Assembly (NCBI GenBank): GCA_015484575.1
Contig: WFND01000167.1
Span: 1 to 33,140, forward strand
Direction: 5' to 3'
Length of the DNA stretch: 33,140 nucleotides
From: Helicobacteraceae bacterium
GTDB taxonomy: Bacteria; Campylobacterota; Campylobacteria; Campylobacterales; Sulfurimonadaceae
Notes under the pieces: model-generated
Database searches by the model: none
The model's input: the letters and a program-made list of their open reading frames with translations, nothing else
What the model was told of the DNA's origin: nothing
Made by a program: the position numbers and the translations under genes
Shown: positions 5,165-18,328 of the stretch, one piece after another
How positions within the stretch are numbered: position 1 is the stretch's first letter
How the letters are laid out: each line of letters opens with the position of its first letter

Positions 5165-5593
5165 ATGTCATTGGAAGATAATGCAATCAGTACCGAAGGA
5201 TTGACTTTTTTAGAAGATGGGGAGGTTTTATATGATGACCTGTATCTATTGTCAGAAACAGATGAAAAGGGCATCGTTACATACGCGAGTGACTCTTTTT
5301 TAAAAATAGCAAATTTAAGAAGCTCTGATTTAATAGGACAGCCTCACAATATTGTCCGTCATCCTGATATGCCACGCGCAGCATTTAAATCACTATGGAA
5401 TGATGTTCAGTCTAAAGGATTTTGGTCTGGATATGTTAAAAATGCTAGAAAAGGTGGAGGATTTTACTGGGTATATGCAACTGTTTTACGCTCTACTGAT
5501 GCTAATGGTGCAATCAAGTATGTCTCTATTCGCGTTAAGCCATCACGTGAAGATATTAAAAAAGCTCAAGAGCTTTATGCAACATTAGATTAA
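5165..5593 (+). CDS. Aer/CetB-type PAS domain protein
   Basis: A stand-alone 142-residue PAS protein with no membrane segment. The PAS fold spans about residues 25-130: YLLSETDEKGIVTYASDSF, then NIVRHPDMPRAAFKSLW and WSGYVKNARKGGGFYWV. The RHPDMP / W...VKN / YWV pattern is that of Aer and of Campylobacter CetB, whose PAS domains bind FAD and report the redox or energy state. Flavin binding here is inferred, not shown. It is the first gene of the chemosensory operon, 14 bases before a receptor that has no sensory domain of its own. This suggests a split sensor/receptor pair as in CetA/CetB. The start is ATG with TGGAGGA upstream. Confidence 0.9.
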   Translation: MSLEDNAISTEGLTFLEDGEVLYDDLYLLSETDEKGIVTYASDSFLKIANLRSSDLIGQPHNIVRHPDMPRAAFKSLWNDVQSKGFWSGYVKNARKGGGFYWVYATVLRSTDANGAIKYVSIRVKPSREDIKKAQELYATLD

Positions 5594-5607: not shown

Positions 5608-7494
5608 ATGGCACTAATCAAAAAAGGCGGCAGTTCAAATGCCGCAATGGTTTCAGGACATACAGGTGATAAACGACGACAACGTACACTGGCAAAACAG
5701 CAACAGATTTCAGAAAGTATTGCCGGTATCGCTACGACAATCTTAGATAATGCCCAAGAGAGCGTCAGTGCAATAGAGCAACTGAAATCTTCAATGGAAC
5801 AGATAGCAACAGCAGCTGAAGAGAACAGTGGAGCAAGTGAACAGGCTCTAAGAAATGTAAAAAGTATTACAAGCAATATCTCTCGAATGGGAAACAGCAT
5901 CGATACTGTTATATCATCAACTCTTACAAGCGGTGATAATATCATGAAGGCAGTAGATACTATCAATCTGTCTGTTAATCGTATGAATGACTCTGTAGGT
6001 GTTGCAAAACAGTCTTCAACAAAAAGTGAAGAGCTTAAAGCATCTTCTGAAAATATAGGTGAAGCAGTCGGCTTTATTGCAAAAATTGCCGATCAGACAA
6101 ATCTACTGGCATTAAATGCAGCCATAGAAGCTTCTCGTGCAAAAGAGCATGGAAAAGGCTTTGCCGTTGTTGCTGATGAGACACGTGCTTTGGCCGGTGA
6201 GAGTGAAAAAAATGCAGAATTTATATCAGACCTTGTAAATAAAATCCAAGCTAGTATAGATAATATTATCAAAAGTATTGTTGATACTACAGATATTATT
6301 GAGGCTACAGGACATCAAGGTACGGATTTAAGTAAAAAGATGGAAGAGCTAACTAAAATTGCCACCTTTACGGTTGAGGCGGCACGAAATATGAATAACT
6401 ATACTCAATCTTTATCCAATGCCATATCAAGAATCAATGATGGGAGTGCCGATATAGCAAAAGCTTCACAAGATATTGCTCACTCTGTTGAGAAAACTTT
6501 AGATGGAATTGAGATTCAATCCAATGCTCTTGCCCAGACAGAAGATGACATAAAAGAGTTAAGTAGTCTGGCAGAGGAGCTTAAATACTCTACCGATACT
6601 ATGAAATCTGCTGAAGAGATGGCATCATCAGCAGATACGATAAGTGGCTCTATGGAAGATATACAGAGCTCCTTAGAAGAGGTTAGCGATGCACTAAATC
6701 AGATAGAGTTAAGCTCAAATACAACAAATCAGAGTGTGCTATCAAATAAGGAGCTTGTTGAAGAGGGGCTCGAAGCTTCTAAAGATATTAATTCATTAAT
6801 AGAGATAGGTCGCCGTAACTTTGATCTTCTTAAAATATCTTTTACAGAAGTCAGAAATGAACTTAAAGCTATCGCTTTAGCTTTTGAAAATTCAATTACA
6901 GAGGGCAATACTGCAGGTGGAGAGCTTGAAGTTATCGTAAAAGAGACTCGTAACGTTGATAAAACCGTGGGAAATATCTCAAACTCTATTATTCAGTTAA
7001 ATATGTTGGCGATTAGCGGTTCTATAGAGGCTGCACGTGCAGGTGATTTTGGTAAAGGTTTTGCCGTAGTTAGTGCAGATATAAGAAATCTAGCAAAAGA
7101 TTCAGAAGAGAATACAGATAAGATAAATGACACCATAGAGTCGATGAATTCAGAGATAGATATGGTAAAAACGGATTGGCTAAAGCTTTTAGGCGGACAG
7201 AGTGATGAGCGTCAGCAGATTAATCGTTTGGTAAATGATGTTGAATTTATTACGACTATGATTATTGATTTACTAGATAGATTTTCCGGTTTAAAAGGTA
7301 TAAATGATCAAAATCTTGAAGGTATGAATCAAGTGCTTATAGGTGTCAGTGAAATACAAAAAGCCGTTGAACTTTCAGCTAGAAATGCGATGGAGTCTCG
7401 TAAAGCGAGTGAATTGATTATTGAAACGATTACTCATATTGGAGAAGGTGTGGAAGAGTTGGCTGTTATGGCTGACGAGTTGCAACAAGGTTAA
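5608..7494 (+). CDS. Soluble methyl-accepting chemotaxis protein with two signalling tips
   Basis: A 628-residue chemoreceptor that should relay signals to CheA/CheW. No transmembrane segment, HAMP or ligand domain is visible; nearly the whole chain is heptad-like coiled coil. There are two hairpin-tip sequences. The first (about 160-200) is canonical: ADQTNLLALNAAIEASRAKEHGKGFAVVADETRALA. The second (about 458-500) is divergent: IIQLNMLAISGSIEAARAGDFGKGFAVVSADIRNLA. They are about 300 residues apart, so the protein looks like two fused signalling modules rather than one long receptor. No CheR-binding pentapeptide is present at the C-terminus (ends ADELQQG). Input probably comes from the PAS protein encoded just upstream or from the CheW-CZB protein. 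The start is ATG behind AAGGAG. Confidence 0.93.
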   Translation: MALIKKGGSSNAAMVSGHTGDKRRQRTLAKQQQISESIAGIATTILDNAQESVSAIEQLKSSMEQIATAAEENSGASEQALRNVKSITSNISRMGNSIDTVISSTLTSGDNIMKAVDTINLSVNRMNDSVGVAKQSSTKSEELKASSENIGEAVGFIAKIADQTNLLALNAAIEASRAKEHGKGFAVVADETRALAGESEKNAEFISDLVNKIQASIDNIIKSIVDTTDIIEATGHQGTDLSKKMEELTKIATFTVEAARNMNNYTQSLSNAISRINDGSADIAKASQDIAHSVEKTLDGIEIQSNALAQTEDDIKELSSLAEELKYSTDTMKSAEEMASSADTISGSMEDIQSSLEEVSDALNQIELSSNTTNQSVLSNKELVEEGLEASKDINSLIEIGRRNFDLLKISFTEVRNELKAIALAFENSITEGNTAGGELEVIVKETRNVDKTVGNISNSIIQLNMLAISGSIEAARAGDFGKGFAVVSADIRNLAKDSEENTDKINDTIESMNSEIDMVKTDWLKLLGGQSDERQQINRLVNDVEFITTMIIDLLDRFSGLKGINDQNLEGMNQVLIGVSEIQKAVELSARNAMESRKASELIIETITHIGEGVEELAVMADELQQG

Positions 7495-7497
7495 ATA

Positions 7498-8877
7498 ATG
7501 AATATAGAAGAGATTCTGATTATAAAAAACGGTAACGTTTTTTATGGTATCAGCACTGAATATATTGATCAAATTTTACGTGTTCCTGCTATAACACCTG
7601 TTGTTTTAACTTCAGATTCTGTTTTAGGATTGAGTTCTGTGAGTGGAAAGATAGTTACTGTTTATGATACTAATATTATATTAGGATTACCCGCAGTTGA
7701 TTTGGAGTGTGAAGATACCAGAGTGCTTAGTTTGGTAGGTGCTTTACAAAATTCTGCTTTGGTAGTAAAAGAGGTAACGGATGCCGTACCGATAAATCAT
7801 GAGATGATTGAAGAGATTCAAGACAGAGGTGATGGTGTTATCGCTCTGTACAAATATAGAGACAGTATAGTTCAAATTTTAGATATTTCACAACTTTTAA
7901 ACAGGGTATCGTTAGATGAATTTAATGTAGAGAGTATAAAAGAGGCATCTTTGAAAAAAGAGAGTATCTCAAAAGAGAGTGCAGATATCAAGCGTTATCT
8001 TTTTATAAAAATGGCAGATGAGAAGTATGCGTTAAATATTCAAAACGTTAGAGAGATAATGAAACTGCCTTCTGAATTTACACCGATAAACGGTAGCGAT
8101 AGAGATATACTAGGTATGATGAATGTCAGAGGCGATCTGTTGGCAGTTATAGATTTACGACGTTTTTTCTCATTTGATGACACCATAAATGAAAAAAATA
8201 GAATTTTAGTTATCGAATTAGATAATAAAACAGTCGGTTTTGTGGTAGATGAAATCTTAGATATTCGTGATGTTGATGCTCATCTGATAGATATGATGCC
8301 TTCTAATTTTAGAGACAAAAAAATCTCTGGAGTTATACATGATGATGAACAGTTAATATCGTTGATTGGTGATGATGTTCTTAATACTTTGCTAGAATCA
8401 AGTTCAGCTCTAAACGGTGAGCAGAGTAAAAACAGCAGTGAAGATATAGAGAAACCTATAGAGCTAGAAGTTGTTATATTTACTTTTGGTGATGAGGAGT
8501 ATGCGATAGATATAGACAATGTGGTAGAAATTATTGATGCCGTAGAGACTACACCGTTTGCTGATGCTCCCAAGTTTGTGGATGGTCTTATAAATATTCG
8601 CGGACAGATAGTTATGATGATGTCTATATATCAGTGGCTATCCAAACCAAAACCTATAAGTGAAGATAAAAAGATAATTATATGTCAGTTGCAAGATTAT
8701 CGCGTAGGTTTTTATGTTGATAGCATTAGTGATGTTATAGGTATAGAAAAAAATGAGATAAAAGAGGAAGATAACAGTGATGAATACTTTACGGATATAC
8801 TTCATCTTGAAAACGGTTCACGGCTTGTACTTCTTTTTGATATAAACAAAATTACTCAATATAAGGACGTTGCATGA
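7498..8877 (+). CDS. Triple-domain CheW coupling protein
   Basis: Coupling protein linking receptor tips to CheA. The usual CheW is a single domain of about 150 residues; this one has 459 and shows three successive CheW-like domains, about 1-137, 165-300 and 320-455. Domains 2 and 3 keep the recognisable pattern: YALNIQNVREIMKLP ... GMMNVRGDLLAVIDLRRF ... GFVVDEI, and YAIDIDNVVEIIDAV ... GLINIRGQIVMMMSIYQW ... GFYVDSI. Domain 1 is more divergent (VFYGISTEYIDQILRVP). Acidic/Lys-rich linkers separate them. It starts 3 bases after the receptor gene and overlaps cheB by 4 bases (ATGA). One protein could bridge several receptor tips or CheA dimers, matching the two-tip receptor upstream. The architecture is seen directly; the bridging role is inferred. 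Confidence 0.9.
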   Translation: MNIEEILIIKNGNVFYGISTEYIDQILRVPAITPVVLTSDSVLGLSSVSGKIVTVYDTNIILGLPAVDLECEDTRVLSLVGALQNSALVVKEVTDAVPINHEMIEEIQDRGDGVIALYKYRDSIVQILDISQLLNRVSLDEFNVESIKEASLKKESISKESADIKRYLFIKMADEKYALNIQNVREIMKLPSEFTPINGSDRDILGMMNVRGDLLAVIDLRRFFSFDDTINEKNRILVIELDNKTVGFVVDEILDIRDVDAHLIDMMPSNFRDKKISGVIHDDEQLISLIGDDVLNTLLESSSALNGEQSKNSSEDIEKPIELEVVIFTFGDEEYAIDIDNVVEIIDAVETTPFADAPKFVDGLINIRGQIVMMMSIYQWLSKPKPISEDKKIIICQLQDYRVGFYVDSISDVIGIEKNEIKEEDNSDEYFTDILHLENGSRLVLLFDINKITQYKDVA

Positions 8878-9932
8878 GTAAAAAAATTTTAATTGTAGAT
8901 GATTCGGCACTGGTTCGTAAACAGTTACGAGAGATGATTGAGAGTCTAAATTTTGAGATTGATGTAGCCAAAAACGGTAAAGAGGCAGTTGAAAAGGCCT
9001 GTGCAGAAGATTTTAATGTTATTACGATGGATATTAATATGCCGGTTATGGATGGTTTGACGGCTGTTAAAGAGATAATGAGTGCCAATCCTACTCCTAT
9101 ACTGATGATAAGTTCATTAACATCAGATGATGCTACGACTACCATAGAGGCTATGGAGCTAGGTGCTATAGATTATATCGCTAAGCCCGGGACTATGAAT
9201 GTTGGAAAACGTGAAAACAGAGAAGAGATTTTAGAAAAGGTCGAGGCGATAAGTAAAATATCTAAAAGGCAGTTAAAACGTAAAAGAGCAAGACCTGCTT
9301 TAAGAGAGAGACCAAATCGTGTTCAAGAAAAAAGTGAGACTACTGCTGATAGCAGAGATATAAAAAAGGTACTTCTTATAGGCTCTTCGACAGGAGGTCC
9401 CGGATTGATTGAGCAGATATGTGCCTCTTTACCGGCTAGTTTCTCTTATCCTGTGTGTATAGTTCAACATATGCCCGAACAGTTTACTAAAGCTTTTGCT
9501 ACGCGTCTTGATAGAGTGAGTGCATTAACCGTGCATGAATCATCACACAATCAAGAGCTTCTGCCGGGAAATATTTATGTAGCTCGTGGCGGTGTTCATA
9601 TGCACTTTGCGAAAAAAGTTTCGGGAAAATATGTAATTCGTGAAGAGAAAGATATAAATGAGCAGTTTTTTCAACCTAGTGTTGATGAGATGTATTTTAG
9701 TGCTTTAAAAACTTTTGGCGGAGAGAAACTTATCGGTGTTATTTTGACAGGTATAGGCGATGATGGTGCCAAAGGTTTACTTGCTATAAAAAAGGCGGGT
9801 GGTTATACTATCGGTGAGAGTGAAGCTAGTGCAACCGTTTACGGAATGCCTAAAGTAGCTTATGACATCGGTGGAGTTATGGAACAGCTGGATTTTTCTA
9901 AAATAGTTAGAAAAATTGCAACATTTAAGTAG
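8874..9932 (+). CDS. cheB: CheB protein-glutamate methylesterase with receiver domain
   Basis: CheB removes methyl groups from receptor glutamates during adaptation and deamidates receptor glutamines. The N-terminal receiver (1-120) is complete: D9, D10, phospho-acceptor D53 in TMDINMPVMDG, and Lys in IAKPG. The C-terminal catalytic domain carries the triad Ser (near 170, GSSTGGP), His (near 199, VQHMPEQF) and Asp (near 295, GIGDDGAKG). The CheB proteins of Campylobacter jejuni, as I recall, lack the receiver, so this enzyme belongs to a separate chemosensory system. It overlaps the triple-CheW gene by 4 bases, and cheR follows two genes later. Confidence 0.97.
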   Translation: MSKKILIVDDSALVRKQLREMIESLNFEIDVAKNGKEAVEKACAEDFNVITMDINMPVMDGLTAVKEIMSANPTPILMISSLTSDDATTTIEAMELGAIDYIAKPGTMNVGKRENREEILEKVEAISKISKRQLKRKRARPALRERPNRVQEKSETTADSRDIKKVLLIGSSTGGPGLIEQICASLPASFSYPVCIVQHMPEQFTKAFATRLDRVSALTVHESSHNQELLPGNIYVARGGVHMHFAKKVSGKYVIREEKDINEQFFQPSVDEMYFSALKTFGGEKLIGVILTGIGDDGAKGLLAIKKAGGYTIGESEASATVYGMPKVAYDIGGVMEQLDFSKIVRKIATFK

Positions 9933-9943
9933 TTGGAGCAGAT

Positions 9944-10567
9944 ATGGCACTTATAAAAAAACATATTGATCAAGATATAGAGTCGCTGCGTGAGTTTGAT
10001 GATCTTGAAGAGGCTATTGAGTATTTTAAAAATTATGATGATTTTGAGCATAGAAAACATGCACTTGAAGCTATAGCAAAGTTTGAAGATGGGGGTGAGT
10101 TTTTAGTTGAGGTTCTTTCAGATATATCGACAGGAAAAGCTATCGATGCTAAAGCGGCTTCACTTCTCTCATCTATGGATCCTGAAGAAGCACCTATTGA
10201 GGCTGTAATGGAGCTTCTTAAACTGCACAACGCCTATATAAGAAATTTAGCAATCTCTGTTTTACAAGATTACGGTGAGGCTATTAAATACTATATAGTT
10301 AAATTTTTAATAGGTAATGACAGAGATTTACGCATCTTTGCTATCAATGTATTGGGTGATGTCAATTTTCCTGAATCACGAGATATGCTTGTTGAACTTT
10401 TAGAAGGAGAGTCTGATATTAATGTTGCTATGACAGCTGTAGATTATATGGCAGAAATCGGTCAAGAGGAAGATATAGCACTTCTTGAGTCTTTAAAAGA
10501 GCATTTTAATCATGACCCTTATGTAGAATTTGGCGTTGATAATGCCATTAGAATGATTAAAGGCTAG
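9944..10567 (+). CDS. HEAT-repeat protein of the chemosensory operon
   Basis: A 207-residue, probably cytoplasmic alpha-helical protein. After an N-terminal acidic region (1-60), helical pairs of HEAT type follow at about 85-118 (AVMELLKLHNAYIRNLAISVLQDYG), 120-150 (DRDLRIFAINVLGDV), 155-180 (INVAMTAVDYMAEIG) and 185-206. HEAT repeats make curved scaffolds for protein contacts. No catalytic motif is visible. Its place between cheB and cheR, 11 and 2 bases from its neighbours, points to a scaffold or adaptation role, but the function is unknown. It shares the first six residues, MALIKK, with the receptor of the same operon. Confidence 0.85.
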   Translation: MALIKKHIDQDIESLREFDDLEEAIEYFKNYDDFEHRKHALEAIAKFEDGGEFLVEVLSDISTGKAIDAKAASLLSSMDPEEAPIEAVMELLKLHNAYIRNLAISVLQDYGEAIKYYIVKFLIGNDRDLRIFAINVLGDVNFPESRDMLVELLEGESDINVAMTAVDYMAEIGQEEDIALLESLKEHFNHDPYVEFGVDNAIRMIKG

Positions 10568-10569
10568 GT

Positions 10570-11400
10570 ATGGCATACGCACTCTCAAAAGATAACTTTA
10601 CAAAAATGAGTGAGTTTATTTATAGAAAAAGCGGGATATATCTTGAAGAAGAGAAGCACTATGATAAACTTGCCAAATTTATCGATTCTCGTATTAATAC
10701 GTTAGGTTTAGATAATTTTAGAAGATATTTTTTTAAATTAAGGTTTGAAGATAAAGAGGGAGATGAGTTTCAAGAGCTTATGAATGCTATCACTGTTAAT
10801 GAGACATATTTCTTTAGAGAAGTAAATCAATTTGAGGTTTTAGCAAACCATATTCTGCCTAGTTTACATAAAGTAAAACCTAAAAATGAGCCTATACGTA
10901 TCTTATCTTCACCCTGTTCTACCGGCGAAGAGCCGTATTCTATTATATTACATATTTTACAAGAGGGAACAGTTGTAGAGGAACGTGACATAGAAGTCGT
11001 AGGTATTGATATAGATTCAACTGTTATTGAAAAAGCAAAAAAGTCACAATACACTTCACGCTCCGTCCATGCCATACCAAAGCCTATACTAAATAGATGG
11101 TTTAAGAAAAAAGGTATGGGTTATAGTTTGGTTGATGATTTAATCGGTGTGGTTGATTTTCAGGTTGTAAATGTTTTTGATAAGGCAGCAATGCGTAAAC
11201 TTGGTAAATTTGATGTGATATTTTCAAGAAATATGATGATATATTTTGATGATGCTTCACGTAAAGAGGTGGCAATGACTTTTTATGATCTGCTAAATCC
11301 GGGAGGGTATGTTCTTTTGGGACATGCTGAATATATGAGCCGTATCGTCTCCGTATTTAATGCAAAAAAGATAGATACGACTTTAGTATATCAAAAATAG
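10570..11400 (+). CDS. cheR: CheR chemotaxis protein methyltransferase
   Basis: CheR methylates receptor glutamates using S-adenosylmethionine. The 276 residues match the family. The N-terminal helical domain (1-75) is followed by NAITVNETYFFRE, then the SAM-binding loop RILSSPCSTGEEPYSI, the acidic GIDIDSTVIEKA, VDFQVVNVFD, and the motif DVIFSRNMMIYFDD. All hallmarks are intact, so it is probably active. No TPR extension is present. Together with CheB it gives this operon its own methylation-based adaptation. Confidence 0.97.
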   Translation: MAYALSKDNFTKMSEFIYRKSGIYLEEEKHYDKLAKFIDSRINTLGLDNFRRYFFKLRFEDKEGDEFQELMNAITVNETYFFREVNQFEVLANHILPSLHKVKPKNEPIRILSSPCSTGEEPYSIILHILQEGTVVEERDIEVVGIDIDSTVIEKAKKSQYTSRSVHAIPKPILNRWFKKKGMGYSLVDDLIGVVDFQVVNVFDKAAMRKLGKFDVIFSRNMMIYFDDASRKEVAMTFYDLLNPGGYVLLGHAEYMSRIVSVFNAKKIDTTLVYQK

Positions 11401-11412
11401 AGGAGAGATATT

Positions 11413-11790
11413 ATGCCGTTAGTTATTTTTATAGATGATAGTGAGACAGCTTTGGCTTCAACTCGTATGGTTACAAACAGTATGCCAATTGATGTTAAGC
11501 AGTACCTACAGGCACAAAAAGCACTGCAAGAGATTGAAAGCGGTGAGATTTCACCAGATCTGATAATTACAGACCTTAATATGCCTGAGATGAACGGATT
11601 TGAATTTTTATCTGCTCTTCGTCAAGTACCTAGTGCTAAACGTGTGCCTGTTTTAATGTTGACAACAGAGACAAAAGCTGAACTGAAACAGCAGGGTAAA
11701 GCTCTTGGGCTTACCGGTTGGATTGTTAAACCTTTTAAACCAGCACAGTTAAAACAGGCTATATCAAGAGTGCTTAGGTTACCGGCATAA
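11413..11790 (+). CDS. CheY-like single-domain response regulator (first)
   Basis: A 125-residue stand-alone receiver domain. The key residues are D8, D9, phospho-acceptor D54 (IITDLNMPEMNG), T84 and K106 (IVKPF). The aromatic switch position near 103 is Trp rather than the Tyr/Phe of typical CheY. It should accept phosphate from the operon's CheA. Whether it reaches the flagellar motor or acts elsewhere (phosphate sink, ParA, HEAT protein) cannot be told. RBS AGGAGAG. It sits directly before the CheZ-like gene. Confidence 0.92.
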   Translation: MPLVIFIDDSETALASTRMVTNSMPIDVKQYLQAQKALQEIESGEISPDLIITDLNMPEMNGFEFLSALRQVPSAKRVPVLMLTTETKAELKQQGKALGLTGWIVKPFKPAQLKQAISRVLRLPA

Positions 11791-11799
11791 GGGGATAAG

Positions 11800-12189
11800 A
11801 TGGTCTTTTTAGATTCTATTGAACAGCTTTTGGCACATATTAAAAATGTTGAAGAAGATACTATGAGTCTCTCTAAAGATTCTCTGTTGAAGTTATCTTC
11901 ATTTTTAGAGAGAAATTCTATTGAGATTGATGATGATGTGGCACAGGCACTACAGTATCAAGATATTATTTCGCAACAACTCAGTGCGAGTATAGAAGCT
12001 ATAGAAGCCATCCAAAAGAGTATCCATCAGTTTAAATTTGCTTATAAAGAAGATGAGTCTATCGCTTTGGAGAGTATGAGTTTATTGCAAAAAAAGTTGG
12101 GTAATATACTAGAACGTGCAAAAGACAATCGTAGAGCATTTTCTGGAAATATAGATCATAATAGTGATGATGAAATAGAGTTTTTTTAG
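11800..12189 (+). CDS. Small CheZ-like putative CheY-P phosphatase
   Basis: A 129-residue, wholly helical, acidic protein that most annotation would call hypothetical. Two features recall CheZ. The sequence ALQYQDIISQQLSASIEAI places Asp55 and Gln59 with the D-x3-Q spacing of the CheZ active site (QDLTGQ in E. coli, D143/Q147). The acidic, Phe-ending tail SDDEIEFF resembles the C-terminal CheY-binding peptide of CheZ (DDLLDSLGF). It is about 60% of E. coli CheZ length, so a short four-helix hairpin would be expected. It is flanked on both sides by CheY-like genes, each 9 bases away, which strengthens the idea. It is an inference from motif plus context, and remote CheZ forms are known in this phylum (HP0170). 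Confidence 0.65.
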   Translation: MVFLDSIEQLLAHIKNVEEDTMSLSKDSLLKLSSFLERNSIEIDDDVAQALQYQDIISQQLSASIEAIEAIQKSIHQFKFAYKEDESIALESMSLLQKKLGNILERAKDNRRAFSGNIDHNSDDEIEFF

Positions 12190-12198
12190 GAGCTTAAA

Positions 12199-12564
12199 AT
12201 GGCAGTAGTAATGGTTGTAGATGATTCAAAAACGGTACGGAGCTATCATGGCTCTATTCTTAAGGCTATGGGAATTGAGATTGTAGAGGCCGAAAACGGT
12301 ATGGAAGCACTAGAGCGTAGTCTTGGCAGTAAAATAGATCTGTATTTAGTTGATGTTAATATGCCTGTTATGGATGGATACTCTTTTGTATCAGAACTTC
12401 GTAAGCAACCATCTAACAAGCTTACGCCGGTTGTTATGGTAACGACTCAGGCTCAAGAGGTTGATAAGATAGAAGCTTACAAGGTTGGTGCAAATCTGTT
12501 TGAAACAAAACCGATTAAGCCGGATCAGCTTAACGCTTACATAAATATTTTAGTACAAAGTTAG
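12199..12564 (+). CDS. CheY-like single-domain response regulator (second)
   Basis: A 121-residue stand-alone receiver with D8, D9, phospho-acceptor D52 (LVDVNMPVMDG), T82 and K104 (ETKPI). The switch aromatic is Phe101. It differs clearly from the other receiver gene 400 bases upstream, so the two are not a recent duplication and probably have separate outputs. It lies 9 bases before cheA and is the most likely direct partner of the kinase. RBS AGGAG. Confidence 0.93.
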   Translation: MAVVMVVDDSKTVRSYHGSILKAMGIEIVEAENGMEALERSLGSKIDLYLVDVNMPVMDGYSFVSELRKQPSNKLTPVVMVTTQAQEVDKIEAYKVGANLFETKPIKPDQLNAYINILVQS

Positions 12565-12573
12565 GGAGAAAAT

Positions 12574-15273
12574 ATGGATCCTTTATTAGAACAATTTCTG
12601 GTTGAAGCACGTGAAAATCTAAGTTTTATAGACCAAAATATTGATGCAATAGGCGGCGATGATCCTGAGTTGTTAAATTCAGTATTTAGAGCCGCCCATA
12701 CACTAAAAGGCGGCTCTGGAATAGTTGGTTTTGAATCTATAAAAGATATTACACACCATGCTGAAGATCTTCTTGATATGTTGCGTAGCGGTAAGATAGA
12801 GTTTCAAGAGTCTATGTTGGAGGCACTGTATAACGCTTTTGATGAGGTTATGAATCTTGTTGAAGCAGCTGAAGAGAGCGAAGAGATAGTAGATGCCGAC
12901 CCTGAACGCATAGAGAGTATTGCAAAAGAGTTAAATGCACAGATGGGGAAAGATGTAGAGGTAAAAGAGGAGTGGAGTGTTCCTTTTGAGTCTATAGGCG
13001 ATATTAAAAATATTGTAAATATGCCTATGGATTTTTTAAAGAATTTCGATGAAAAATTGGATTTCAAACTAGATGAATATGGAGAAGATGATTGTAATAG
13101 AAAACATCTTTTTGCCGTCAGTTTTGATGTAGATGAGTCTTGCATGGTTTACGGTAATGATCCTGTATATACACTCTCGTTACTAGAAGATGCTGTTGTT
13201 GGAGTTCATATCTGTATGGCTGAACAAAATGCCAAATCTATACTTAGCGGAATGGATGATCCTGATGGACTGTTGATGCAGGTACAGTTAACGGCTTTTA
13301 TATATGGGGCATATCCCGATATCGAAGATGCTCTGTTTAATTTTTTAGATGAACTTCAATTTGCTGTTTTGGATATATCCACCCTGCTGTCTGTTGAGAT
13401 GGGTGAGCAAAATCATCAGCTAGACATCATAAAAGAGATCTCTTCTCAGGCCAAGCTCTCTCATGAATCGATAAACGAGGCTATAAAAAAGGCTCTTCCT
13501 TTAATTGGTGAAGATAGTATTCAGTTCTCACAACTGACTCGTTTATCTGAAGTTTTAAGTAATATTTCTGAAAATGATTTAGCAAAATTGGGCTCATTTT
13601 TCACATCAATGCAGAGCGGTAGCGTTTATGAGTTTGATGAAAATGGTGAAATTTTAGATTTTAACGATAAGGTTGTCGATGAGGATAAAGAGTCAAAAAC
13701 AGCCACATTAAAGATAGATGATATAAGCAAAGCAACTCTAAATGAGATATTAACCCAACAGTTTAAAGCACTTGAAAATTTTGACAATGATGAGACTCTG
13801 TTAAGAGTATTTAGTATTTTGGATAAGGTTGGACGTTTTTATCCAGATATGCCAGAACTTAACACTCGTGATGATATTATGCAGTGGATAACTCAAGAGT
13901 TAGGTTTAACAGCTGCCGATAACTCTACAGAAAAAGAGTCTGTCAAAGAGAAGGCAGTTAAACAAGAGCCGATTAAAGAGGATAAAGTTACACAGCAAGA
14001 GAGTGTACAAAAAGAGACTAAGCAGAAAAAAACTCCAAAAAAGGAGAAGACGGTTACAAGCAAAGCAGTTGTAGGTAAAACTGTTAAAATAGAGCAAGAG
14101 TCTATAGATAATCTGATGAATATAGTAGGTGAACTTCTTGTTGCAAAAAATTCACTTCCTTATCTAGCAGATAATGTTTCAAATATGAATTCAGAGACAA
14201 TTAAACGTGAAATAATGGAGAAATATACCTTTATAAATCGTTTATCAGAGCAGTTGCAGGATTTAATAATGTCGATGCGTATGTTACCTATATCGTATGT
14301 ATTTGATCGTTATCCAAAACTCGTACGTGAAATATCAAAAAATCTAGGAAAAAAAGTAAAATTAACCATGGATGGCGGTCAGACAAAACTAGATAAAAAT
14401 ATGATAGAGATGTTAGCCGATCCTATGATTCATATTATGAGAAATTCATTAGACCACGGTATAGAGACACCGGATATTCGCCTCGAAAAAGGTAAACCAG
14501 AAGAGGGCAATGTCACATTAGAAGCCTACTCGCAATCTGATAAAATCATTATAGAGATTGTAGATGACGGTGCCGGTATAAATATTGATCGTGTTATTGC
14601 TAAAGTATTAGAAAAAGAGTTGTTGAGTATTGAAGAGATAGATGCTATGAGTGATAATGAAAAAGCAGAACTTGTGATGTTGCCGGGACTGTCCACTGCT
14701 GAAGAGATTAGTGAATACAGCGGTCGTGGTGTAGGTATGGATGTTGTTAGAAAATCGATAGAGAGTTTCGGTGGAAGCATATCCATACAGACAAGACCAA
14801 ATCAAGGTACTACTATCAGACTATCTATACCTGTTTCATTAGCTGTTACGGAACTTTTACATGTAACAATGGATGGCGTACATTATGGTCTTCCTATGGA
14901 TAATGTATCTGAGATAGTGAAGATTAATCGTGAAGATATTGAGTATCTTCATAATGAACCTTTTGTCTATATTCGTGGTGAGGTTATTCCTCTGTTATTT
15001 ATCAAAACAATGCTAAATGAAGAGGTTTTAGAAGGTTTACCTCTTCCTATTGTTGTTTTAAATATAAAAGATAATTTGGTAGCCATAGTTGTTAATGAAC
15101 TCTTAGGACAGTTAGATGTAGTACAAAAACCTTTAGAAGGTGTTATGGAAAATCACCCTATATTTAGCGGAACTGCTCTTCTTGGTAATGGACAGATTAT
15201 TATGACTATTGATCCTCTAGGTATCTTGGGTATCTCTACTCAACTTAAGTCCGAGATACAGAAGGCGTGTTGA
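12574..15273 (+). CDS. cheA: CheA chemotaxis histidine kinase
   Basis: An 899-residue CheA, longer than the usual 650-700. Order: Hpt domain (1-105) with phospho-acceptor H42 in RAAHTLKGGSG; a large middle part (110-440) that includes a stretch near 170-240 resembling the P2-like domain of other CheA proteins (FAVSFDVDESCMVYGNDPVYTLSLL); a Lys/Glu-rich linker (450-505); dimerisation helices (505-575, ESIDNLMNIVGELLVAKNSL); the ATPase domain (590-755) with HIMRNSLDHGIE, DDGAGI and SGRGVGMDVV; and a C-terminal CheW domain (757-890). No receiver is fused. All catalytic motifs are intact. The final codons overlap the start of the CheW-CZB gene. It holds the operon's only copy of the TTACATGTAA palindrome, encoding Leu-His-Val in the CheW part. 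Confidence 0.97.
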   Translation: MDPLLEQFLVEARENLSFIDQNIDAIGGDDPELLNSVFRAAHTLKGGSGIVGFESIKDITHHAEDLLDMLRSGKIEFQESMLEALYNAFDEVMNLVEAAEESEEIVDADPERIESIAKELNAQMGKDVEVKEEWSVPFESIGDIKNIVNMPMDFLKNFDEKLDFKLDEYGEDDCNRKHLFAVSFDVDESCMVYGNDPVYTLSLLEDAVVGVHICMAEQNAKSILSGMDDPDGLLMQVQLTAFIYGAYPDIEDALFNFLDELQFAVLDISTLLSVEMGEQNHQLDIIKEISSQAKLSHESINEAIKKALPLIGEDSIQFSQLTRLSEVLSNISENDLAKLGSFFTSMQSGSVYEFDENGEILDFNDKVVDEDKESKTATLKIDDISKATLNEILTQQFKALENFDNDETLLRVFSILDKVGRFYPDMPELNTRDDIMQWITQELGLTAADNSTEKESVKEKAVKQEPIKEDKVTQQESVQKETKQKKTPKKEKTVTSKAVVGKTVKIEQESIDNLMNIVGELLVAKNSLPYLADNVSNMNSETIKREIMEKYTFINRLSEQLQDLIMSMRMLPISYVFDRYPKLVREISKNLGKKVKLTMDGGQTKLDKNMIEMLADPMIHIMRNSLDHGIETPDIRLEKGKPEEGNVTLEAYSQSDKIIIEIVDDGAGINIDRVIAKVLEKELLSIEEIDAMSDNEKAELVMLPGLSTAEEISEYSGRGVGMDVVRKSIESFGGSISIQTRPNQGTTIRLSIPVSLAVTELLHVTMDGVHYGLPMDNVSEIVKINREDIEYLHNEPFVYIRGEVIPLLFIKTMLNEEVLEGLPLPIVVLNIKDNLVAIVVNELLGQLDVVQKPLEGVMENHPIFSGTALLGNGQIIMTIDPLGILGISTQLKSEIQKAC
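14857..14866. repeat. TTACATGTAA palindrome, copy 3 (in cheA)
   Basis: Exact copy read as codons for Leu-His-Val in the CheW-like part of cheA. It is the only copy between 5035 and 19099. Confidence 0.9.
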
Positions 15274-16043
15274 TGAAGTCACTGCTTATCTTTAAAGTAA
15301 AAAAGAATTTTTATGCTATAAATCTGGACTTTATACAGCGTATAATACAGGTTCGTGCAGCTACTGAAATTCCAAATGCTCATGAATTTATAGATGGTAT
15401 GGTATCTTATGAAGGCAGAGTGATTAAGATAGTGAATTTTCGTAAAATGACAAATTTACCTACTTATGAAGATGATCTTATAGAGTTATTTGAGAGATTA
15501 AAACAGCAACATGCACTATGGGTTGATACGTTAAAAGAGAGTGTGCAAAAAGGTGTTAAATTCTCCTTGACAACAGATTCTCATTTATGTGATTTGGGAA
15601 AATGGCTAGATAGCTTCACCTCTTATGATGAGAATGTAAGTAAAATATTAAGAGAGCTAAATAGTTTTCACAAACAGCTACACAACTCGGCTGTAGATAT
15701 TATAAAAATAGCACAGAGAGATAGAGATAAGGCTCTTGCGGAGATAGATACCAATGTTATAAGTATCTATAAATCGACAATAAATCTACTAGATACTTTT
15801 ATAGATGAATTTGACTCTGTAGCAGATTCACTCCAAAAATTACTTCTGTATAGTAATGGAGATGAATTTGCTCTAAAAGTTGATGAGATAATAGATATTG
15901 CACATGTTGATAGAGATATAACTTTGCAAAATATAGATACAGAGCCTAGTCAATATCTTGAGCTTGAAGGTGTTGTAGAGCTAAATGATATTTTAATAAA
16001 TGTGATAAAAACAGTTAAACTTCCAATAAAAGAGGTAAAATAA
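15273..16043 (+). CDS. CheW domain split by a CZB zinc-binding domain
   Basis: A coupling protein with a chemoreceptor zinc-binding (CZB) domain inserted inside the CheW fold. Numbered from ATG 15273 (256 residues), the first CheW part is 1-65 (LLIFKVKKNFYAINLDFIQRII ... GMVSYEGRVIKIVNF), CZB is about 70-150, then come a helical hairpin and the last CheW strands (195-252). The zinc ligands fit the family pattern exactly: H80 (HALW), C106 (CDLGKW), H133 and H137 (HKQLH). CZB Cys reacts with hypochlorous acid and senses zinc in other proteins. The track's GTG start at 15267 is less likely: the ATG at 15273 sits 7 bases after GAAGG and forms a TGATG overlap with the cheA stop. Sensor function is inferred. 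Confidence 0.9.
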   Translation: MKSLLIFKVKKNFYAINLDFIQRIIQVRAATEIPNAHEFIDGMVSYEGRVIKIVNFRKMTNLPTYEDDLIELFERLKQQHALWVDTLKESVQKGVKFSLTTDSHLCDLGKWLDSFTSYDENVSKILRELNSFHKQLHNSAVDIIKIAQRDRDKALAEIDTNVISIYKSTINLLDTFIDEFDSVADSLQKLLLYSNGDEFALKVDEIIDIAHVDRDITLQNIDTEPSQYLELEGVVELNDILINVIKTVKLPIKEVK

Positions 16044-16312
16044 TGGCAATAGATATACAAGATAACAGAGTTGTATTTTCATCTGTGATATATGAAGATG
16101 AGGTATCAACGATGCGAGACTTTTTTCAACAAAGAGCACCTGAGAAGATAAGTATAGATTTTTCCCAATGTGATGATGTTCATTTGGCTGTGTTACAGAC
16201 AATTATGGCATATAAAAAGCTTTATGATTGTGAATATCACTTTGCCAAAGAGAGAAAAATATTCCAAAGAGTGTTAGAAGGATTTGATAAGAGTGAAAAC
16301 CATTGTAATTAG
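16043..16312 (+). CDS. Short STAS-domain protein, phospho-site lost
   Basis: An 89-residue protein resembling the STAS domains found in chemosensory operons. The core ISIDFSQCDDVHLAVLQTIMAYKK lines up with the usual DLS..E.IDTAGLQLLLALKR. The conserved Asp-Ser/Thr pair is replaced by His47-Leu48, so phosphorylation of the type seen in anti-sigma antagonists is unlikely. It may act as a fixed protein-binding module. It starts on the last base of the preceding stop (TAATG) and overlaps parA by 20 bases. STAS family membership is moderate, given the shortness. Confidence 0.65.
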   Translation: MAIDIQDNRVVFSSVIYEDEVSTMRDFFQQRAPEKISIDFSQCDDVHLAVLQTIMAYKKLYDCEYHFAKERKIFQRVLEGFDKSENHCN

Positions 16313-17036
16313 CAATAGAAAAGGTGGCTCTGCTAAAACAACTACAGCGGTAAATCTTGCATCTCAACTGGCTAAAAATGCTTCTGTTCTTCTGTTAGAT
16401 TTTGATACACAAGGTCACGCTAGTATAGGAGTTGGTTCAAAGCCCTCCGAATCTTTGGGAGTTCACTCTATTTTTTTGGGTTCAACTCTTAGTGAAACGT
16501 TTATACCTACTATTCATGACAGACTGACTCTCTCTCCTGCTTTGGAGTTTTTTGATGTTTATGAGTATGCGGATTTAAGAGGCGTCTTAAAGAGCCGTTT
16601 TAAGCATGAAAGAATTGCAGAATTTTTTGACTACTGTATTATAGATACGCCTCCGACTTTTGATGCTCTGCTTAAAAACTCTCTTGAGGTTGCCGATAGA
16701 GTCGTCATCCCTTTTGTACCACATCATTTAGGTGTTGTTGCTGTTGGACAGATGGTTAGAGCCGTATATCAAAGTGCAACGATGTTGGGACGTGACGCTG
16801 CTGAAGTTGACATCTTACCCGTAATGTTTAATCCCCATATTTTAGAGCATAAAGCAGCACTTGAAAAGGTTAAAACATCTTTTGGCAAAGATAAGCTTTT
16901 CTCACCTATCGGTGTAGATATAAAATTGGCTTCACAATTTGAATCGGGTGACCCTTTAGTTTTAAACAAGCGTCGCTCTAAAGGATTAAAAGATTATAAA
17001 AATTTCACAAATGAGCTTTTGGAGCGTCTAAAATGA
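16293..17036 (+). CDS. ParA-family partitioning ATPase
   Basis: A MinD/ParA-type ATPase of about 247 residues. The deviant Walker A motif is intact (NRKGGSAKTTTAVNLA), with VLLLDFDTQGHAS as the next switch and CIIDTPPTFDALLKNSLEVADRVVIPFVPHH as Walker B and beyond. The track start TTG 16284 lies on top of the ribosome binding site AGAAGGA. GTG 16293, ten bases after it, fits better and begins directly before the core strand VKTIVISN. No ParB or parS is nearby, so plasmid partitioning is unlikely. ParA homologues PpfA (Rhodobacter) and ParC (Vibrio) position chemoreceptor arrays, and that role is the best guess here. The gene overlaps its STAS neighbour by 20 bases and the receiver gene by 4. 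Confidence 0.92.
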   Translation: MKTIVISNRKGGSAKTTTAVNLASQLAKNASVLLLDFDTQGHASIGVGSKPSESLGVHSIFLGSTLSETFIPTIHDRLTLSPALEFFDVYEYADLRGVLKSRFKHERIAEFFDYCIIDTPPTFDALLKNSLEVADRVVIPFVPHHLGVVAVGQMVRAVYQSATMLGRDAAEVDILPVMFNPHILEHKAALEKVKTSFGKDKLFSPIGVDIKLASQFESGDPLVLNKRRSKGLKDYKNFTNELLERLK

Positions 17037-18328
17037 ATAAGATACTAATCGTTGATGATAATAAAAATAATCGTATGATTTTACATCTTTTACTAGATGA
17101 TTATCTCGATAAACACAAAGAGTTTTTATATCATATCGATGAGGCTGAAAATGGAGAGTCGGCACTAGAGATGGTCAAAAATGTATCTTATGATATAGTG
17201 CTTATGGATATTATGATGCCAAAAATGGATGGTATTGAAGCTACTAAACTTATCAAAAAGATAAATAAAAACATTATGATTATTGCCATTTCAGCTATGG
17301 ATGATATAGACAGACAGAGAGAGATTTTAAATGCCGGTGCAGAAGATTATCTATCAAAACCGATAAATGCAGATATTTTTACTACACGTATAGGACACTA
17401 TTTCTCTCTTATAGAGTCAAGAAATCATAAAAAATTTAATTTAGAGGCCATAAATAACTATACAAAAGAGATATTTAGCAGACGTCTTGTCTTTATGATA
17501 GCATCGGATGATGATCTGTCTGAATTTTGGGAATATTATCTCTTGGGTGATAATGAACGTTATGAATATCTTAGTGATACGGTAAGGGTTATTTATGCTC
17601 TTTGTGACCTCTTGTTGAAGCTTGATGAGCATTGTGAAGTCATTGTTGAAGAGTCTGAAAATGAGAGGTATTACACCATCACTAACATAGACAAGCTCGA
17701 TGATGAACTTATCATGTTGGTAATGATGAAAAACAGATTGGTAGATAACTATAAGATAAAAAATGCTCGTATCAGTTTTATGCTTTGCATAACATCTGAA
17801 CAAAACATTACGCAAAAATCTGAAGTTGATGTTACTAGTGTGAATAAAGAGAGTGCAACACAAGAGGTTGAAGTAGTAAAAAACAGTGTATATGATTATA
17901 TAGATGAAGATGATTTAGAAGAGTTGGAGATATATATTTCAAAACTTAACTCACTACTGCTAATAATAGGCAGCGGCAATGTAGAAGATGATGAAATTGT
18001 TGAGATATATACATATCTTGAGTTAATTGCAAAAATTTTAATTACATATAGTGAGTCAAAAACAGTTGGGGATACACTTTTAGAGCTTTCAGATGTTATA
18101 GCGAAAAATATAGATGTATTTCGTAAAAATTCAGCTGCTTTAGCACCTATGGCAAAAGCTTTTAGCAGTGATTTACAGACATGGAACAGAACCATTTTTC
18201 ATGATGGTGCTCCTAGTGTTGACTATCTTGATGATACAATATGTGCAAATTCTAAAACCATCTCTTTGATGTTGAGTCCACAAGAAGAGAGTGCCGAGGA
18301 AGAGTTAGATGATATTTTTGATTTTTAG
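17033..18328 (+). CDS. Response regulator with uncharacterised C-terminal region
   Basis: A 431-residue protein. The N-terminal receiver (1-130) is complete: D8, D9, phospho-acceptor D59 (LMDIMMPKMDG), S87 and K109 (LSKPI). Residues 130-260 are acidic and mixed alpha/beta with no family I recognise (FWEYYLLGDNERYEYLSDTVRV). A linker (265-295) leads to a helical part (295-415) that ends in the acidic, Phe-rich tail EEELDDIFDF. No DNA-binding, GGDEF, EAL, HD-GYP or kinase motif is visible. The tail looks like that of the CheZ-like protein in the same operon. It overlaps parA by 4 bases (ATGA), so it may couple phosphorylation to array positioning. This is inference only. Confidence 0.88.
   Translation: MNKILIVDDNKNNRMILHLLLDDYLDKHKEFLYHIDEAENGESALEMVKNVSYDIVLMDIMMPKMDGIEATKLIKKINKNIMIIAISAMDDIDRQREILNAGAEDYLSKPINADIFTTRIGHYFSLIESRNHKKFNLEAINNYTKEIFSRRLVFMIASDDDLSEFWEYYLLGDNERYEYLSDTVRVIYALCDLLLKLDEHCEVIVEESENERYYTITNIDKLDDELIMLVMMKNRLVDNYKIKNARISFMLCITSEQNITQKSEVDVTSVNKESATQEVEVVKNSVYDYIDEDDLEELEIYISKLNSLLLIIGSGNVEDDEIVEIYTYLELIAKILITYSESKTVGDTLLELSDVIAKNIDVFRKNSAALAPMAKAFSSDLQTWNRTIFHDGAPSVDYLDDTICANSKTISLMLSPQEESAEEELDDIFDF

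Follow-up and report, generated by a model that had tools for sequence, protein, structure and literature searches.

A CZB domain nested between the CheW barrels of a coupling protein in an F9-class chemosensory operon

The coupling protein encoded directly after cheA in a chemosensory operon of a Helicobacteraceae bacterium contains a CZB domain nested between its two CheW barrels (CheW-CZB). The operon lies in the window, i.e. the whole stretch of 33,140 nucleotides that was analysed (assembly GCA_015484575.1, contig WFND01000167.1), Table 1. We infer that CheW-CZB is a coupler of an F9-class array, to which a zinc or redox input would be brought by the nested domain. As an explanation of the observations as a whole this fits best, and we hold it with modest confidence.

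Table 1. Positions of the operon genes and of the CheW-CZB features in the window.
Feature	Position	Strand	Remark
PAS protein	5165..5593	+	first operon gene; another candidate sensor
DosM-like receptor	5608..7494	+	signalling hairpins: two; transmembrane segments: none; sensor domain: none found
CheW3	7498..8877	+	three CheW domains
CheB	8874..9932	+	
HEAT-repeat protein	9944..10567	+	
CheR	10570..11400	+	
CheY-like receiver	11413..11790	+	
Unannotated protein	11800..12189	+	129 residues; CheZ-like QxQDxxxQ motif
CheY-like receiver	12199..12564	+	
CheA	12574..15273	+	Hpt, dimerisation, ATPase, CheW-like P5
CheW-CZB gene	15273..16043	+	256 residues; last base of the cheA stop in common
N-terminal CheW half	15273..15464	+	residues 1-64; strands 2-9, 12-17, 21-26, 40-46, 49-55
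R23	15339..15341	+	equivalent to Glu38 of E. coli CheW, with the opposite charge
E47	15411..15413	+	equivalent to Arg62 of E. coli CheW, with the opposite charge
Nested CZB helical insert	15465..15833	+	residues 65-187; Pfam CZB core 80-144
H80	15510..15512	+	predicted zinc ligand; aligned with DgcZ ligand position
C106	15588..15590	+	predicted zinc ligand and redox cysteine; aligned with DgcZ ligand position
H133	15669..15671	+	predicted zinc ligand; aligned with DgcZ ligand position
H137	15681..15683	+	predicted zinc ligand; aligned with DgcZ ligand position
C-terminal CheW half	15834..16040	+	residues 188-256; strands 189-248
Weak STAS_2 match	16043..16312	+	conserved in operon
ParA-like ATPase	16284..17036	+	
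Receiver-domain protein	17033..18328	+	431 residues

Fold and predicted zinc site of CheW-CZB

The frame opens at 15273 with an ATG that overlaps the cheA stop codon (TGA), and it runs to 16043 on the forward strand. CheW and CZB occur together in the protein, without receptor or cyclase domains. Pfam identifies CheW at residues 4-91 (E 9e-16) and CZB (PF13682) at residues 80-144 (E 8e-11, 42.5 bits against a cut-off of 29.4), the latter over the full length of the family (model positions 1-64 of 64). The second, C-terminal, CheW half is not detected by Pfam. A profile of the insert-less orthologues matches both halves in register, residues 1-64 with model positions 1-63 (E 7e-30) and residues 181-256 with model positions 68-142 (E 5e-21).

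An AlphaFold model was built from an alignment of 31 relatives and obtained a mean pLDDT of 90. It consists of five strands (2-55), helices (65-187) and five further strands (189-248). Foldseek aligns the model with solved CheWs over 246-250 columns, at a TM-score by target of 0.73-0.77; for the DgcZ CZB domain (3T9O) the TM-score by target is 0.63. According to AlphaFold, Foldseek and the profile, two five-stranded barrels are present in CheW order. The junctions are short: strand 49-55 is followed by a helix at 56-59 and the CZB helices start at residue 65, while helix 180-187 directly abuts the strand at 189.

Insert-less CheWs of 142-153 residues are found at the equivalent operon position in relatives, and because they match both flanks the CZB domain is a true nested insertion. 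In four relatives (L117, L118, L047, L084) Pfam reports two separate CheW stretches. An earlier note on this DNA had claimed that CheW strands flank a CZB domain and had proposed structure prediction of the 256 residues as a check. The prediction was run and finds the CheW barrels around the insert, so the nesting is confirmed.

The same note had named H80, C106, H133 and H137 as a zinc ligand pattern, which agrees with the zinc site of DgcZ. When the insert profile is searched against the PDB, DgcZ (YdeH) is the sole match (E 5e-6), and the four residues stand opposite its ligand residues in the profile alignment. By this alignment to 3T9O, the four predicted ligands would be clustered.

Five other CZB proteins are encoded in the same genome (contigs C107, C29, C166; L001-L004, L006). 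They comprise soluble and membrane receptors and one CZB-only protein.

Operon and genome setting

According to passages in PMC9321776 and PMC7534058, the F9 class is defined by DosM and a triple CheW, and the F9 arrays of Vibrio cholerae are cytoplasmic and double-layered. Judged by its gene content, the operon in the window is an F9-class system, with a DosM-like receptor carrying two hairpins and with CheW3, and by analogy its array would be cytoplasmic and double-layered. The receptor has two MCP-signal stretches, with hairpin motifs near residues 160 and 460. Its maximal 19-residue hydropathy is 1.0, so there is no transmembrane segment, and no sensor domain was found in it. The published DosM homologues are likewise described in passages of the two papers as lacking sensory domains and as thought to need added inputs, and the same passages report that no input or role has been established for F9 arrays so far. 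Because the receptor of the operon is a sensorless DosM-like scaffold, zinc or redox sensing at the coupling protein is plausible and better motivated. The PAS protein encoded first in the operon could be the sensor instead.

The other chemotaxis locus of the genome has its own CheW, CheV and CheA (identities read from length and CheW matches), which leaves CheW-CZB as the F9 operon's one single-domain coupler. F9 cluster I of V. cholerae likewise encodes a double-signalling receptor, a triple CheW, CheA, CheB, CheR and CheY, whereas the operon in the window has in addition a single-domain coupler (CheW-CZB, or a plain CheW in relatives) and STAS-like and ParA-like genes. Among Campylobacterota, Nitratiruptor and Nautilia have a partial F9 set without cheA, according to a passage in PMC9321776. 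The equivalent operon is found across relatives named Sulfurimonas, Sulfuricurvum and Sulfurimonadaceae, and the coupler family, with or without insert, was scored in 11 of 397 drawn Campylobacterota genomes.

The ParA-like gene adjoins the coupler, or sits one gene away, in nearly every locus. Vibrio ParP, which binds ParC (a ParA-like protein), joins arrays by means of its CheW-like domain (PMC5706961), and CheW-CZB might by analogy be a positioning adaptor that ties the array to the ParA-like ATPase. However, the ParC-binding region of ParP is a separate N-terminal one and no such region precedes the CheW-like domain in CheW-CZB, whose chain opens with the first CheW strand. ParA also persists at loci with a plain coupler, and we consider an adaptor role quite improbable.

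The 129-residue protein encoded between the two cheY genes has no Pfam match. Its QxQDxxxQ motif, on which a CheZ assignment rests, is present in 51 of 51 orthologues, and the protein may be the phosphatase that acts on CheY-P in this F9 system. Split frames occur in two relatives, L060 (receptor and receiver gene) and L096 (cheA), and are either frameshifts or assembly errors.

Proposed mechanism

CheW-CZB would act as the single-domain coupler of an F9-class, double-layered cytoplasmic array, with the CZB domain built into the inter-barrel loop. For the CZB domains of TlpD, DgcZ and McpA, a response to HOCl or zinc is reported in parts of PMC6715182, PMC8262984 and PMC13370339, and the signalling described in parts of the first two proceeds by zinc loss or by oxidation of the ligand cysteine. 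PMC13370339, a 2026 preprint, proposes zinc availability as a redox messenger. The nested domain would bind zinc very tightly, and either zinc loss or oxidation of C106 would alter how its helices pack against one another. Both outer CZB helices, the first and the last, are predicted to run almost linker-free into strands 5 and 6, and a repacking of the helices would then change the angle at which the two barrels meet. The groove for the receptor is the junction of the two CheW barrels (PMC5706961). With the receptor tip at this junction and CheA P5 on the outer barrel faces, a shifted angle would alter the coupling of CheA kinase activity to DosM. The array would in this way receive an input of zinc availability or redox state at the baseplate, which would suit a sensorless scaffold receptor.

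A stronger version is that F9 arrays of sulfur-oxidising Campylobacterota receive their input via the coupler, where the zinc occupancy of CZB bends the barrels and sets CheA activity, as a receptor-independent channel that is switched off by deletion of the module. We put this forward tentatively and think it rather doubtful. If true, a sensor in the coupler would be a direct and testable candidate for the input of F9 arrays, and the insert-less and zinc-less relatives at the equivalent operon position are ready-made natural controls.

Conservation of the insert

The search for other CheW-CZB fusions and their neighbours suggested in the earlier note was carried out, and it turned up 53 CZB-bearing relatives, a shared operon and nested members in Bacteroidota. 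The fusion is not confined to the window: 46 loci were retrieved from species genomes, about two thirds of them with the insert. No relative was found among the viral contigs and plasmids searched. The nested CheW-CZBs of four Bacteroidota members carry the insert at the equivalent place with the ligand set conserved, which makes the nesting probably general for the CheW-CZB subgroup. These proteins (L131 7504-8307, L132 7980-8825, L133 7612-8445, L134 8227-9030; genomes reached through the Bacteroidota locus) are stand-alone or encoded near cheA.

All four ligands are kept in 47 of the 53 CZB-bearing relatives. The remaining six (L079, L081, L122, L123, L083, L047) have lost two to four ligands and kept the insert, and they form four lineages on the operon tree (L079/L081, L122/L123, L083 and L047). 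Pfam no longer detects CZB in the inserts of L083 and L047. These six relatives show that zinc binding is not the sole possible reason for keeping the insert. With a dN/dS of 0.03-0.26 for the insert in ten close pairs, purifying selection acts on it. Barrel positions that are more than 85% conserved in both forms have an identical residue whether or not the insert is present, and the insert therefore acts like an add-on module.

Four-helix bundles of CZB domains form pairs, as in DgcZ. The insert could accordingly be mainly a structural or dimerisation module that links couplers or stabilises the array, with the zinc merely structural and dispensable. The ligand-losing lineages fit such a role, for the length of their inserts is about unchanged (109-116 residues) and the dN/dS of the pair L079/L081 is still 0.14. 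The zinc-less L083 is also still predicted as a helical insert, with confidence falling mainly around residues 91-110, the former cysteine loop. Further, the loci with two couplers match in state, nine with the insert in both and five with it in neither, none being mixed. However, the plain pairs form one clade, the matched states trace to few independent events, and the full ligand set of the large majority would be needless for a pure spacer. We find a mainly structural role unlikely, and sensing through the zinc site remains the reading we prefer.

Three outlying CheW-CZBs (L117 10837-11631, L118 9028-9810, L050 2778-3596) have an extra CxxC pair within the CZB domain. In L117 and L118 the CheW-CZB gene follows the DosM-like receptor, in the usual place of CheW3.

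Probable repeated loss of the insert

At the coupler slot, relatives have either one or two CheW-CZBs, either one or two plain CheWs, or no coupler at all. On a coupler tree built on the barrels alone, the plain forms are scattered: L089 stands beside L086, L097 groups with L080 and L082, and further plain forms make up two groups in Sulfuricurvum, one for each coupler copy, and a single group in Sulfurimonas. A single origin with the plain CheWs as one clade is rejected by the AU test (p 4e-62; p 1e-5 when only the first coupler is considered). At least 6 state changes are needed on the coupler tree and at least 7 on the operon tree, and trees by themselves give no direction of change. We read the changes as losses, since L089 retains residues that match the end of the last L086 CZB helix, since insert and barrels diverge together, and since a homologous domain is unlikely to have been gained repeatedly at precisely the same site. 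By this reading there appear to have been at least five in situ losses of the insert that left the operon intact, so the array would work without it. Replacement by a plain CheW through gene transfer is disfavoured for L089 and L097, both of which group with CZB-bearing sisters.

Compared with L086 (9998-10765), L089 (4550-4990) lacks about 110 residues, lost in frame with a plain CheW restored, and it keeps a scar of the last CZB helix. In L097, compared with L080 and L082, an in-frame loss of about 110 residues likewise restored a plain CheW.

Clean and repeated in-frame losses show that the insert is dispensable, as expected of a nearly neutral passenger that has no function itself and is tolerated by a permissive loop. 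The selection data disfavour this, with dN/dS far below 1, and the insert length is conserved (112 residues in 43 of the 53 CZB-bearing members), as is the ligand set across families, Bacteroidota included. A neutral passenger is thus very improbable.

Comparison with known CZB and CheW proteins

The architecture of CheW-CZB is not new. In addition to the nested Bacteroidota examples, it was catalogued in 2021 as a named subgroup that makes up 1.4% of CZB proteins, according to a passage in PMC8262984, and it is also named in passages of PMC10653840, where sensing through the fused CheW is already discussed. The same two sources report, in the parts that concern this subgroup, Clostridia as its main holders. 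The published subgroup, as described in part of PMC8262984, likewise joins CheW and CZB in one soluble protein with His3-Cys ligands. It is said in passages of both papers, silent on whether the CZB is nested, to have Ala, or poor conservation, after the cysteine, whereas this residue is mostly Glu, Arg or Gly in the coupler family studied here; and the protein in the window, unlike a subgroup placed by those passages mainly in Clostridia, stands in a Campylobacterota F9 operon and has a putative inverted salt bridge. We found no account, in the open-licence literature, of a CheW-CZB in an F9 setting, of the putative exchanged salt bridge, of recurrent insert loss or of the ligand-less relatives, and the first three look new.

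The chemoreceptors TlpD and McpA share the CZB fold and ligands and feed CheA, but there the domain is at the receptor end and not inside the coupler. The CZB domain of DgcZ (PDB 3T9O and 4H54) has the same fold and the same four ligand positions, and its output is diguanylate cyclase activity in contrast to the CheA coupling proposed for CheW-CZB. CheV, CheWS and ParP are also CheW-like folds in which added domains bring functions to the baseplate. Their extra domain is at one end, while that of CheW-CZB is nested between the barrels.

A putative exchanged salt bridge in the barrel

In E. coli CheW, a salt bridge between Glu38 and Arg62 is required to keep the receptor and kinase sites in register, and the function of CheW is decided by the geometry of these sites and not by binding (PMC3828127). 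The invariance of the Glu-Arg bridge has been published for class F7 only. Both charges are reversed in CheW-CZB (R23 and E47). Among 75 couplers (relatives L037-L123), 59, including the one in the window, have R/E at the first and second position, two have R/D or K/E, and eleven have R/Q or R/N. Only the outlying proteins L117, L118 and L050 (Glu/Lys in L050) and domains 2 and 3 of CheW3 retain the usual Glu-Arg order. The Bacteroidota CheW-CZBs (L131-L134) also have the usual order. The exchanged charges are common to the plain and the CZB forms, and because both have R/E the putative exchanged bridge belongs to the F9 coupler and not to the insert. The reversed charges offer a natural way to test whether, as claimed, the receptor-kinase geometry in CheW is set by this bridge.
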